Both the position numbers and the translations under genes were made by a program. Positions 25,763 through 30,147 of a stretch of 64,000 nucleotides of DNA are shown piece after piece. A model generated the notes under the pieces. It was not told the DNA's origin and did not search any database. It saw only the letters and a program-made list of their open reading frames with translations. This DNA is from Sporocytophaga myxococcoides DSM 11118 (GTDB lineage Bacteria > Bacteroidota > Bacteroidia > Cytophagales > Cytophagaceae), in assembly GCF_000426725.1 (NCBI RefSeq), contig NZ_KE384560.1:372001-436000 (forward strand), in the 5' to 3' direction. Every line of letters starts with the position of its first letter. Position 1 is the first letter of the stretch.

Positions 25763-27103
25763 TCAAATAGTTTTTCCTTCTTTGATAAGTTCTTTTCTTA
25801 TTCCAGTATAAATATCTTCTTCTTCAATCATCTTTTCCTGTCTGCTGATTGCCTTGAGCCCGCAGTACCTAAGCACATTCGTGATGGCACCTCCTGATAA
25901 TTCATACTCCTTTGCTATTTTTTTAATGTTCACGGAGGGCGCAAGCTCAAAATCCTTTCCAAAAGCTTTGGTCCAAAGTTCGGTTCGCATATCTGGTGCA
26001 GGAATAGGAAAGTAGATCATTGACTGGAACCTCCTTGCGAAGGCATCGTCAATGTTACCTTTGAGATTGGTAGCAAGTATGACCAGACCAGGAAAATCTT
26101 CAATGCGTTGAAGTAGAAATGATATTTCCTGATTAGCGTAGCGATCCTTTGAATCCTTAGTGGCAGTTCGCTTCCCAAATAAAGAATCTGCTTCATCAAA
26201 AAATAAAATCCAATTTTTATTTTCAGCCATATCAAAAACACTTGCAAGATTCTTTTCGGTTTCACCTATGTATTTTGAAACCACCATAGATAGATCAATG
26301 CGATAGACATCAAGTTTATTGGACTTACCGAGTAATGTTGCAGTAAGCGTTTTACCTGTTCCCGGTGGTCCATAGAACAATGCTCGAAAGCCTCGTTTCA
26401 GTTTCTTACCCATATCTCCGGTCTCAAGCAATTCTTTACCATAACGTATCCAGTTATTTATTTCGTCAACATCTTCCCTAACATTATGATCCAGGATCAG
26501 GTCTTCCCAATTAAGTTTAGTGGTAAGAAGTGAAGCAGGAAAATTTGTACTGAAGTCAGGCTTGTAAACCTCTCCGGTGGTAAGGAAAGTAAGAATTTCA
26601 TCTGAAATGCGCAGAGGCCTGCTAAAGAGGGGATCTCTATCATTTAAACTGTCTAGTAGAATAATTCTATGTTTTCTGAGAAAGTGTTTTTCTGTAAGTA
26701 CTTGTTGAAGCTGAAAACGTTTTGCAAGATCAGTGCCTGCCAGTATGAAGGAAGCGGTTTCTATAGTGGGTAGAAAGCCGTTGTGTACATTGCCTTTGTA
26801 TCCTCCAAACTCAGTAAATTCACGATTGTGAAGTGAATTTCTGGTAAAGAAAATATCAAGTGCATGAGGTTTTAAATGAGGAATGAGGGCTAACAAAAGG
26901 ATAATTCTTTCATATGGACTCATACTATAGTACTCAACAAGTGAGGCATAGTTGGAACCATCATCTTTTAGATCCGGAGGATTATCGGATAGAAGTTTTT
27001 CCTCTTCATTTTGAAAATAATTCCGGATGCGGGAGTCTACAATAGATTCAAACCAAGCAATTTCTTTGTTTAACGAAATTGTATTTTTTTCCAGTGTTTT
27101 CAT
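25763..27103 (-). CDS. AAA+ ATPase of the extracellular contractile injection system (Afp15/Pvc15) type
   Basis: A 446-residue ATPase. Residues 1-200 form an N-terminal helical domain (YSMSPYERIILLLALIPHLK, then FTRNS) like that of ATPases in Bacteroidota contractile injection loci. The AAA+ core has Walker A GPPGTGKT at 245-252, Walker B ILFFDEAD at 299-306, sensor 1 ATN at 344-346, an arginine-finger segment FARRF at 355-359, and sensor 2 SGGAITN. All catalytic elements are present. Relatives are needed for assembly or remodelling of injection particles, but no sheath, tube, baseplate or spike gene lies within the window. It may serve a distant locus or act on other clients; this is inference. 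The next gene on the strand is the macrodomain-like one. Confidence 0.8.
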   Translation of the reverse strand: MKTLEKNTISLNKEIAWFESIVDSRIRNYFQNEEEKLLSDNPPDLKDDGSNYASLVEYYSMSPYERIILLLALIPHLKPHALDIFFTRNSLHNREFTEFGGYKGNVHNGFLPTIETASFILAGTDLAKRFQLQQVLTEKHFLRKHRIILLDSLNDRDPLFSRPLRISDEILTFLTTGEVYKPDFSTNFPASLLTTKLNWEDLILDHNVREDVDEINNWIRYGKELLETGDMGKKLKRGFRALFYGPPGTGKTLTATLLGKSNKLDVYRIDLSMVVSKYIGETEKNLASVFDMAENKNWILFFDEADSLFGKRTATKDSKDRYANQEISFLLQRIEDFPGLVILATNLKGNIDDAFARRFQSMIYFPIPAPDMRTELWTKAFGKDFELAPSVNIKKIAKEYELSGGAITNVLRYCGLKAISRQEKMIEEEDIYTGIRKELIKEGKTI

Positions 27104-27392: not shown

Positions 27393-27860
27393 ATGAATTT
27401 TTTAAATCGGTTTTTTAATAGAGGTGAATCACAAATAGAATGCCCTCGGTGTCTTGGCAAGGGACACGTAGATTGGGCTGATATTAAAAGATTGAATCAG
27501 GTGCTTAAATGGATTCCCGGTAGCTGTGCTTTTTGCAATGGGGTTGGTAAGATAGATCCAAAGATGGAAAAAAAAGTTGCAGTTGATGCTACTTATTTAG
27601 TTGATAATCTTTCAGAGATTGAAAGAAGATTATATATCAATGGTAATCCTGAAGCTTTGGAAAGAGCTGCTCAATATGAAAGTAATTTGGAAAGTTTTGT
27701 TGAACAAGTCAATTATCTGCATTTTCATGGAAAGTTGAGCTCTGAACAAATTACAGAATTTTTTCTGCTTTCTCAAATTAATTCCGACTCTTATGACGAT
27801 GAGAAAGCTAAACTTACTGATTACATTAATAGAATAATTGCCAGAGGAGAAAGTAAATAG
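27393..27860 (+). CDS. Small protein with a DnaJ-type zinc finger
   Basis: A 155-residue cytoplasmic protein. Residues about 17-52 contain one pair of CxxCxGxG motifs (CPRCLGKG and CAFCNGVG), the zinc-binding unit of the DnaJ central domain, but there is no J domain and only a single zinc centre instead of two. The rest (residues 60-155) is helical and acidic, with segments ATYLVDNLSEIERRLY and LERAAQYESNLESFVEQVN. The lipoprotein gene starts 12 bases downstream on the same strand, so the two probably form an operon. A role in binding a partner or unfolded polypeptide is a guess from the finger type alone. Confidence 0.7.
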   Translation: MNFLNRFFNRGESQIECPRCLGKGHVDWADIKRLNQVLKWIPGSCAFCNGVGKIDPKMEKKVAVDATYLVDNLSEIERRLYINGNPEALERAAQYESNLESFVEQVNYLHFHGKLSSEQITEFFLLSQINSDSYDDEKAKLTDYINRIIARGESK

Positions 27861-27872
27861 TATTTTATAATT

Positions 27873-28817
27873 ATGAATAAATTTGTTGCCATTATTTTTA
27901 TTTTTTGGTGTATTACTGCATGTGATAGTAGTAATAATAAAACATTGAAAAAGACACATGCTGCGTCGGTTGTCAATATAGATACTTCTGATTACAGTCT
28001 AAACTATCTTGAATCTCTGCATAGGAAGAGGAATTTTAAAAGATATGATAAATCATTGACAGAATTTATTCTTTCTAATCCTAATAAACGTGATAGTGTA
28101 AGAAAGATAATTTATCTGCAGCCTCTCGGGAATATGAGTGATAAAGTAGCAGGAATAATCAAAGAAGAAATAAATTATCTAAAGAGTTTTTTTCAATTGG
28201 AAGTAAAAATTCTGGGCAATATTTCTTTTGAAGAAATAAAGAATAGAAAGGTAGAGACAAGATTAGTCTCAGAAGACGATTTGGGATACTATAATAAATT
28301 TAAGAGTAGCTCGGTAAATCTGACCGAACAGATAAATGCAAATTCTTTAATAGAAAACTACTTAAAGAATAATGTGCCTACGGATGCAGTTGCAGTCCTT
28401 GGAATAACTGAGCATGATTTATATTTACCCCGGATGAACTTTATTTATGGTTCTTCTTATCTTAAAAATAGAATGGGGATAATCTCTACCTACCGTATTG
28501 CCGAGGATTACGAAGAAAGTAAAATGAATATTAGGAAAGTGGTGACGAAGCAGATTGCAAATTTATTTTCAATTCCTAACGTAAAGGATTATGTATGTGT
28601 TCTTAATTTTCACAATAATATCGAGCAATTGAGAGCAGGTACCTTATTAATATCACCCGTAGCATTGGCGAAACTCAAGTATGCAATTGGTTTTGACTAT
28701 ACCCAAAGGTTTAGTGATCTCAAGGAATTTTATCATAGTGAAGGTAATGAAGCCATGGAAGAATATTATGATAAATCTTTGAAGTTGATAGCAACCCAGG
28801 TGAAAAGCAAAAAATAA
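27873..28817 (+). CDS. Archaemetzincin-like lipoprotein lacking the zinc site (apparent pseudoprotease)
   Basis: A 314-residue lipoprotein with signal MNKFVAIIFIFWCITAC (Cys17). Residues about 70-300 follow the archaemetzincin plan. IIYLQPLGNMSDK is the first strand; AVAVLGITEHDLYLPRMNFI and MGIISTYRIAE are the segments just before the active site. At the place of HExxHxxGxxHC the protein has Lys226-Gln227-I-A-Asn230-LFSIP-Asn236-Val, so both metal-binding His, the catalytic Glu and the third ligand are all replaced. The downstream CxM reads CVL, and the structural CxxC is absent (LISPVALAKL). The frame is intact and well folded by eye, so it is probably a non-catalytic binding protein on the periplasmic or outer-membrane face. 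The DnaJ-finger gene lies just upstream. The family call rests on flanking similarity. Confidence 0.75.
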   Translation: MNKFVAIIFIFWCITACDSSNNKTLKKTHAASVVNIDTSDYSLNYLESLHRKRNFKRYDKSLTEFILSNPNKRDSVRKIIYLQPLGNMSDKVAGIIKEEINYLKSFFQLEVKILGNISFEEIKNRKVETRLVSEDDLGYYNKFKSSSVNLTEQINANSLIENYLKNNVPTDAVAVLGITEHDLYLPRMNFIYGSSYLKNRMGIISTYRIAEDYEESKMNIRKVVTKQIANLFSIPNVKDYVCVLNFHNNIEQLRAGTLLISPVALAKLKYAIGFDYTQRFSDLKEFYHSEGNEAMEEYYDKSLKLIATQVKSKK

Positions 28818-28899: not shown

Positions 28900-30147
28900 A
28901 TGAAGAATCTATTAATGCTCTTTCTTTTGCTATTGTTAATCTTTCAAAGAGAAGGTGCTAAAGCTGGAATAGCAAAGACAATTGATGGGCAGCCTGCAAT
29001 GGGGAATTACTATAGTTGGAATTATACTGCAGGAAGCTGGCAGTATAATGGTAAAATGGAATTTGAATATGATGGTAATAACAATCTGGTTTCAGAACTC
29101 TATTTTAATTCTGCTGGAGATACTTCTTCTAAGAAAGTTTATTCATATAATAATCTGGGAAAAGAGATAGGAAATTATACTTATTTATATACGAATAATA
29201 TCTTTATTCCCTCAAGTAAAGAAATCCGGACATATGATTCCAAAGGGTACCTTTCGAAGTTTGAAAGCTTCAGGTCAAGTGATGGAGTTACTTGGGTGAA
29301 TAGCGAAAGAATTGTTTATTACCGTTCTAATGGCACACTAGAATATCCGGATATGGTAGAGAAATCTCGGTGGGAAACAGTTTCATGGAGGATATTCAAA
29401 AAATATTCTAATATGGTGTGGATAGATTTTGAAAAAGAAAAATTTTCTTCTGGTCTAATTGAAGAAGGCACCAATCAAAGGATTATTTACACGACAGATA
29501 GTGAGGGAATAAAAAAGGGTAGATTTGAATCATACAGCTTCAATACAAAAACCTGGACTTATTCATTAGATGAGATTCATACAAAAGATGTCCAGGGTAA
29601 TACAACCATGATAATTCAGGGAGATTATGGTAGCGGTCCGATAGTTTTTTCAAGAATTATTTATCCTGTAGATGCTAAAGGAAATGATGCAGGTTATATC
29701 GCAGAAGTTTGGTCCAACAACAATTGGAAGTTTATTTCTTCTGAATTGACTACCAATACCTATAATTCAAACGGCGCATTGACAGAAATAATAAATGAAG
29801 GTAAAGAGGTTGGAGCATCAGATTTTCAGACAACTGGGATTAATTATAAAACCAGGATTATATATGAAGGATATAGTGAAGTAACCTCATTGGGACAATC
29901 CTCTGCGCTTTCAATAATACAGATGGTTTACCCAAATCCATGTAGGAATATTTTAAACATTGATGTTGCGGGCAAAGCAGATATAGAAATCTCCCTTTTT
30001 GATATGAGTAATCATAAAGTTTTAAGCTCAATAATCCCACAGGGGAAAGGTAGTGTTACAATTGAAGATATTCCTATAGGACTTTACTTACTTAAAACTA
30101 CGACTCAGGAGGGGGGCGTATATATTCAAAAGATTGTTAAAGAATAA
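28900..30147 (+). CDS. Secreted protein with T9SS type A sorting domain
   Basis: A 415-residue exported protein. The signal peptide runs to about residue 22 (LLMLFLLLLLIFQREG). The body is built of repeating Tyr/Asn/Gly-rich strands (YNGKMEFEYDGNNNLV, KVYSYNNLGKEIGNYTY, EIRTYDSKGYLSKFESF), reminiscent of YD/RHS-like or T9SS surface strand repeats. The C-terminal ~80 residues (MVYPNPCRNILNIDVAGK, then LFDMSNHKVL, then GLYLLKTTTQEGG, ending IQKIVKE) are a complete type A T9SS signal, which directs export through the outer membrane and removal of the tail. No catalytic motif was seen. A decayed copy of a similar tail follows directly after it in the same frame. Confidence 0.8.
   Translation: MKNLLMLFLLLLLIFQREGAKAGIAKTIDGQPAMGNYYSWNYTAGSWQYNGKMEFEYDGNNNLVSELYFNSAGDTSSKKVYSYNNLGKEIGNYTYLYTNNIFIPSSKEIRTYDSKGYLSKFESFRSSDGVTWVNSERIVYYRSNGTLEYPDMVEKSRWETVSWRIFKKYSNMVWIDFEKEKFSSGLIEEGTNQRIIYTTDSEGIKKGRFESYSFNTKTWTYSLDEIHTKDVQGNTTMIIQGDYGSGPIVFSRIIYPVDAKGNDAGYIAEVWSNNNWKFISSELTTNTYNSNGALTEIINEGKEVGASDFQTTGINYKTRIIYEGYSEVTSLGQSSALSIIQMVYPNPCRNILNIDVAGKADIEISLFDMSNHKVLSSIIPQGKGSVTIEDIPIGLYLLKTTTQEGGVYIQKIVKE

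Follow-up and report, generated by a model that had tools for sequence, protein, structure and literature searches.

What can an archaemetzincin do once the residues that hold zinc and cleave substrates have been replaced? The question is raised by a gene in a 64,000-nucleotide stretch of the Sporocytophaga myxococcoides DSM 11118 genome (contig NZ_KE384560.1, positions 372,001 to 436,000; hereafter the window), which an earlier note had described as encoding an archaemetzincin-family lipoprotein that has lost every zinc and catalytic residue. Its reading frame is intact, as that note had held, running from an ATG to a TAA through 314 codons (Table 1). Four such zinc-less genes are known: the window gene, one in the Sporocytophaga MAG G003, a congener of the window genome, one in Flavobacterium bernardetii, and one in the genome G1046, which belongs to the F. 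bernardetii genus group. Scans for promoters (12 found versus 10.3 expected) and for the Bacteroidota -7 motif (73 found versus 83 expected) were uninformative.

Table 1. Features of the zinc-less gene and its neighbours, in window coordinates.
Feature	Position	Strand	Basis or remark
Pseudo-archaemetzincin lipoprotein gene, 314 aa	27873-28817	+	ORF call and profile matches
Presumed signal peptide with lipobox ITAC, Cys17	27873-27923	+	read by eye
18-residue insertion, residues 131-148	28263-28316	+	alignment with 52 active-type rows
Former active-site helix, KQIANLFSIPNV replacing HExxHxxGxxHC	28548-28583	+	alignment
Cys242, sole finger cysteine retained	28596-28598	+	alignment
SPVA replacing last CxxC (S261, A264)	28653-28664	+	alignment
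Upstream gene, 155 aa, two CxxCxGxG-like repeats	27393-27860	+	ends 12 bases before the zinc-less gene
Downstream gene with Por secretion tail	28900-30147	+	profile match

The profile check that the earlier note had proposed gave small E-values for the window protein, with bit scores below both curated cut-offs: NCBIfam model NF033823 (archmetzin) matched residues 146-253 (E 3.4e-14, 53.2 bits, cut-off 145) and Pfam PF07998 gave E 1.4e-4 and 22.3 bits (curated cut-off 24.4). The sibling protein P0004 scored above the PF07998 cut-off with 25.9 bits, and the F. bernardetii protein (L087) below it with 21.9. The PDB archaemetzincin 2x7m also matched the window protein (E 2.3e-7), and a profile of the zinc-less proteins aligned over 277 columns with one built from 11 active long-form homologues (probability 100, E 6.8e-41). 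Judged by these comparisons, the homology to archaemetzincins is not a matter of chance, and the 277-column match indicates that nearly the whole protein, C-terminal extension included, corresponds to the Bacteroidota long form. The metzincin fold has presumably been retained without metal.

Against the archaemetzincin consensus HExxHxxGxxHCx4CxMx17CxxC (PMC3427221), the window protein reads KQIANLFSIPNV-KDYV-CVL, followed by SPVA. The zinc motif HExxHxxGxxH with its Glu is absent, KQIANLFSIPN standing in its place, as is the Cys4 finger CX4CXMX17CXXC, so that all three His, the Glu and three of the four finger Cys of active archaemetzincins are replaced. C242, the third finger cysteine, is the only one to survive, and it is present in all four zinc-less members. 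The loss of every zinc and catalytic residue thus holds for the His ligands and the Glu, but not for C242, while the reading of Lys226 to Val237 as KQIANLFSIPNV instead of HExxHxxGxxHC was confirmed by placing the columns against 52 active-type rows, and alignment likewise agreed with the claims that CxM has become CVL and that the final CxxC is gone (SPVA). The 52 rows, which include a few short-type genes with long frames, had been chosen for a length of at least 270 aa and for HExxHx5HC, making their His, Glu and first-Cys columns 100% conserved by construction; the C242, M244, C261 and C264 columns are also 100% conserved among them. From its residues, a zinc peptidase mechanism is excluded for the window protein.

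The residues that replace the zinc site are themselves conserved, with K226, Q227, N230, N236, V237, S261 and A264 invariant across all four zinc-less members. Within this clade the former active-site segment (helix and Met-turn) is the most conserved of seven segments, whose borders were chosen by hand, with 20 of 33 positions invariant as against 126 of 314 for the whole protein. Scaffold residues including Y81, G86, Q153, D182, Y184, G193, S205 and R208 are retained in all four members; those lost include W51, F88, P185 and W188. In addition, the insertion at residues 131-148 is found in all four and is gapped in at least 90% of the 52 active-type rows.

We consider it likely that the product is a zinc-free, non-proteolytic envelope lipoprotein of archaemetzincin fold that works by binding, not by cutting. 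The loss of catalysis and the pattern of conservation form the whole basis of this putative binding role. According to the mechanism we propose, the zinc ligands and the catalytic Glu would have been lost once, in the ancestor of the four members inside the long form, and the metzincin fold would stay in place without metal in a lipoprotein anchored in the cell envelope. The former substrate cleft, lined by the invariant Lys, Gln and Asn, would offer a binding surface for a protein or peptide, with which we also count the added 18-residue segment located elsewhere in the protein. The gene, which is present in cassettes in the Flavobacterium group and at differing places in related genomes, would move laterally.

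The proposed survey of homologues for the same residue losses found them shared by the four genes and not confined to one strain; a one-strain oddity was rejected because G003, F. bernardetii and G1046 also carry the gene. Within the genus of the window it occurs in two of four genomes, one copy being frameshifted (G003, at the former active-site helix), and G001 and G002 have no such gene. A short archaemetzincin with an intact zinc motif is found in three of these four genomes, and the second archaemetzincin of the window genome is of this kind (HELGHNLGLDHC). Queried with the window protein (P0001), 19 of 148 related genomes matched, its own included, and the zinc-less motif was otherwise seen only in G003. 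Across the order, a family-model search matched 42 of 390 genomes (E 1e-5), where only the window and G003 genes lacked the motif apart from fragments and a weak match, L062. In the class the zinc-less profile matched 14 of 395 genomes, one of them (L086) a weak N-terminal match, and the window's own gene was the sole zinc-less one there. The F. bernardetii family group gave matches in 3 of 388 genomes, one of them zinc-less, and its genus group in 65 of 299, two of them zinc-less. Among the other 63 of these, 18 loci were motif-read in the census described below and 45 were judged by score alone, each reaching at most 96.4 bits against 543 and 612 for the zinc-less pair; G829 and G1047 among the 45 apparently equal L076 and L080 (same coordinates), which were motif-read under those labels. 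The counts from these different genome searches overlap and are not additive.

A pattern scan of named-species genomes returned four loci, zinc-less in F. bernardetii F-372 and the Sporocytophaga MAG, and with the zinc motif intact in F. silvaticum and in an archaeal archaemetzincin. The F-372 gene is intact and encodes 310 aa; that of G1046 encodes 315 aa. In a census of 83 distinct homologue ORFs (E<=1e-8, fragments included; rows identical over their final 150 residues and hits weaker than E 1e-8 excluded), 75 carried HExxHx5H, and the eight without it were five ORFs of the four zinc-less genes and the fragments L021, L022 and L061. L062 (genome G129), which lies outside the census, is a weak match of 269 residues that reads HEVGHLLGLVN, with the third-place His missing. 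L061 (G268) is an archaemetzincin-like ORF of 149 residues that ends before the zinc motif and is perhaps a remnant, and L021/L025 (G064) and L022/L024 (G056) are two long zinc-motif archaemetzincin genes split by frameshifts, whether real or errors of assembly. A single-protein scan of genome contigs gave no match. Among 72,556 plasmid records one matched, a Bernardetia archaemetzincin with 24% identity; one stretch in viral contigs fitted a pattern, with none confirmed; and neither P0001 nor the F. bernardetii protein matched a defence library.

The surroundings of the gene differ between close relatives. In the congener G002, whose DnaK is 99.5% identical to that of the window genome, the upstream and downstream genes adjoin with 51 bases between them and no zinc-less gene, an empty site. 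G003 has no upstream gene, so its zinc-less copy sits at a different locus. As these genomes indicate, the zinc-less gene is an accessory one, gained and lost. The upstream neighbour had been called a DnaJ-type zinc-finger protein; its distance stands, whereas the match to DnaJ falls below the PF00684 cut-off and is weak (E 0.0045), with CPRCLGKG and CAFCNGVG visible. Further upstream, on the minus strand, positions 25763-27103 encode an AAA+ ATPase that also has a winged-helix match; its hits to IetA, a defence protein (E 2e-36), perhaps reflect no more than generic AAA similarity, and at this locus G002 matches only residues 357-446.

The ends of attC sites are of the GTTRRRY/RYYYAAC type. 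On a 6-kb contig of F. bernardetii, the ORFs are separated by four ~130-bp repeats, of which one is truncated where the contig stops, and the zinc-less gene forms a unit (L087:2344-3310) with attC-like repeats on both sides. The repeats are imperfect palindromes of ~125-135 bp with GTTRRRY/RYYYAAC-type ends, and the first and last bases of each of the three units on the contig are complementary over runs of 10, 9 and 9 bases. In a second F. bernardetii array, runs of at least 9 occur in 6 of 13 units, with a mean of 7.15 versus 4.32 between different units, and the genome (3.4 Mb) holds at least 40 copies of the repeat (all 40 of those scored, the best 40 of 115 candidates). By these features the F. 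bernardetii zinc-less gene is an integron-type gene cassette. Large cassette arrays of this genome lie at L087:1-6024 and L118 (G769:C4:1-20000), and the next cassette after the zinc-less gene (L087:3597-5934) encodes a cytosine methyltransferase and an HpaII-type restriction enzyme together. In G1046, attC-like sites of a different type, found by eye and pattern, flank the gene; the unit's own ends match at 8 of 9 bases, an agreement also seen in 0.9% of random GTT/AAC-anchored pairs at that place (1818 among 198680). A single copy of the F. bernardetii repeat, 84% identical, is present on the Chryseobacterium plasmid NZ_CP041688.1 (L096:3604-6133), with a tyrosine recombinase gene ~1.4 kb away (NF040815 221.5 bits, TIGR02249 206.7, cut-off 265).

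None of the four genomes with a zinc-less gene had an integron integrase above the TIGR02249 cut-off, and for this reason we use the term integron-type cassettes, with no claim that an integron is complete; matches below the cut-off carry little weight, being present in 13 of 14 control genomes as well. A cassette context for the window gene was rejected, since a search for the F. bernardetii-type repeat found none adjoining it (best window match E 0.27), and an attC-like repeat was looked for and not found beside the G003 copy. Salinibacter ruber is a member of the Bacteroidetes with a complete integron (PMC9024848), and Bacteroidota are listed among integron phyla (PMC8618304); our literature search found no match for an archaemetzincin together with an integron. 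A portable binding protein of the envelope is a possibility that we put forward tentatively; the dead active site would be its pocket, and its targets might, for example, be phage, a foreign protease or a bacterial toxin. The same reading, no less speculative in this form, would take in a gene that is cassette-borne in Flavobacteriia and single in Sporocytophaga, and a metzincin fold free of metal.

Phylogenetic analysis, using alternate active rows only and piece 1 of the G003 gene, placed the four zinc-less genes in one clade inside the long-form Bacteroidota archaemetzincins (support 100/99). The stem of this clade measures 1.7 changes per column, and such long branches, which the program flags, call for caution. 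Within it the G003 copy joins G1046 (99/89) and then F. bernardetii (99/95), rather than the window copy from the same genus, which makes at least one lateral transfer likely. Because the same replacement residues occur in all four genes, parsimony suggests that loss of the zinc site is most likely older than their split, in which case dN/dS would measure selection on the zinc-less form itself.

For the three closest zinc-less genes, NG86 dN/dS was 0.131/1.188 (F. bernardetii-G1046), 0.156/1.527 (F. bernardetii-G003) and 0.159/1.33 (G1046-G003), that is, ratios of 0.10-0.12; the corresponding LWL85 values were 0.116/0.622, 0.145/0.713 and 0.146/0.731, ratios of 0.19-0.20. Active homologue pairs were similar, with a median NG86 ratio of 0.128 (n=39, the pairs for which dS was defined among the 40 computed out of 105 eligible). 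Codons with a single difference between F. bernardetii and G1046 comprised 75 synonymous and 28 nonsynonymous changes, for an expected synonymous fraction of 0.21. Pairs that include the window copy had NG86 dN of 0.46-0.53 with saturated dS (2.3, 3.0 and undefined) and LWL85 ratios of 0.31-0.51; identity between the window and F. bernardetii genes at codon positions 1, 2 and 3 was 0.60, 0.71 and 0.44, a pattern of protein-level constraint. These comparisons support purifying selection on the zinc-less form across the clade; recent selection on the window copy alone is less sure, given the saturated dS and LWL85 ratios.

A decaying gene, its first loss being catalysis and its open frame in the window a leftover, would accommodate the frameshift in G003, the lack of the gene in G001 and G002, the long stem and the LWL85 maximum of 0.51 for the window-G003 pair. 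It is hard to reconcile with identical replacement residues in four genes, with the NG86 ratios among three of them, or with three full-length open frames that share 49-78% amino acid identity (78% for F. bernardetii-G1046), and we regard it as improbable. For the clade, low dN/dS and the invariant replacement residues led us to reject simple decay, and decay appears largely refuted there. Selection and not decay, as the earlier note had argued, therefore stands for a clade of one origin and is less well shown for the window copy.

Equally improbable, in our view, is that the protein regulates an active archaemetzincin of the same cell or acts as its decoy. A short zinc-motif archaemetzincin does accompany the zinc-less gene in the window genome, G003 and F. 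bernardetii, but G1046 (completeness unstated) had no second NF033823 match at E<=0.001, and the searches run saw no active long-form copy in the four genomes; with G1046 lacking an active paralogue by the search made, such a paralogue seems unlikely as the binding partner. Least probable of all is new catalysis in the former cleft by Lys226, Gln227, Asn230 and Asn236, since the invariance in the four members of these residues, which occupy the positions once held by the zinc ligands and the catalytic Glu, is accounted for equally well by a binding site, and we know of no metal-free enzyme of metzincin fold, which we counted against it.

The role of archaemetzincins in general is an open question, and AfAmzA, whose active sites were occluded, was inactive towards the substrates tried (PMC3427221). 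A relative under selection with almost no metal site, as we read the window protein, suggests that neither catalysis nor zinc is required for the scaffold to be of use. In a free-living bacterium the zinc-less gene is removable and offers a clean system for asking what the scaffold binds, and its carriage in cassettes ties it to mobile accessory functions in Flavobacteriia.

Taken together with known systems, the F. bernardetii units resemble integron cassettes in their palindromic repeats, end types and own-end complementarity, and differ in that none of the four genomes has an integrase above the TIGR02249 cut-off and in that the window and G003 copies are without repeats. The window protein aligns with M54 archaemetzincins (AmzA; PDB 2x7m, 3zvs, 4axq, 3lmc) around the active site and with long-form Bacteroidota archaemetzincins over nearly its full length; whereas active M54 members keep three His, the Glu and four finger Cys, it keeps one finger Cys. 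In mammalian AMZ1, whose activity is doubted, the third His is the one named as replaced (PMC3427221), compared with all three in the window protein. Archaemetzincin pseudoproteases had been called little described, which is true of a zinc-less form, none being found in the literature searched, but not of non-proteolytic archaemetzincins, which are known from CarG and NF033824. The NF033824 model (non-proteolytic archaemetzincin-like protein), which we infer to be the CarG family, gave the window protein 29.8 bits against an equivalog cut-off of 250. CarG of Myxococcus xanthus, a non-proteolytic archaemetzincin relative in which the motif Glu is replaced by Gln (PMC3427221), acts through binding a protein, CarD (PMC4374960), and is a 170-residue zinc-associated transcription factor that needs each of its four cysteines (PMC3427221, PMC4374960). 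Both proteins are thus relatives of archaemetzincins, but where CarG is non-proteolytic and still associated with zinc, the window protein has most of the ligands gone and, unlike CarG, carries a lipoprotein signal as read by eye.
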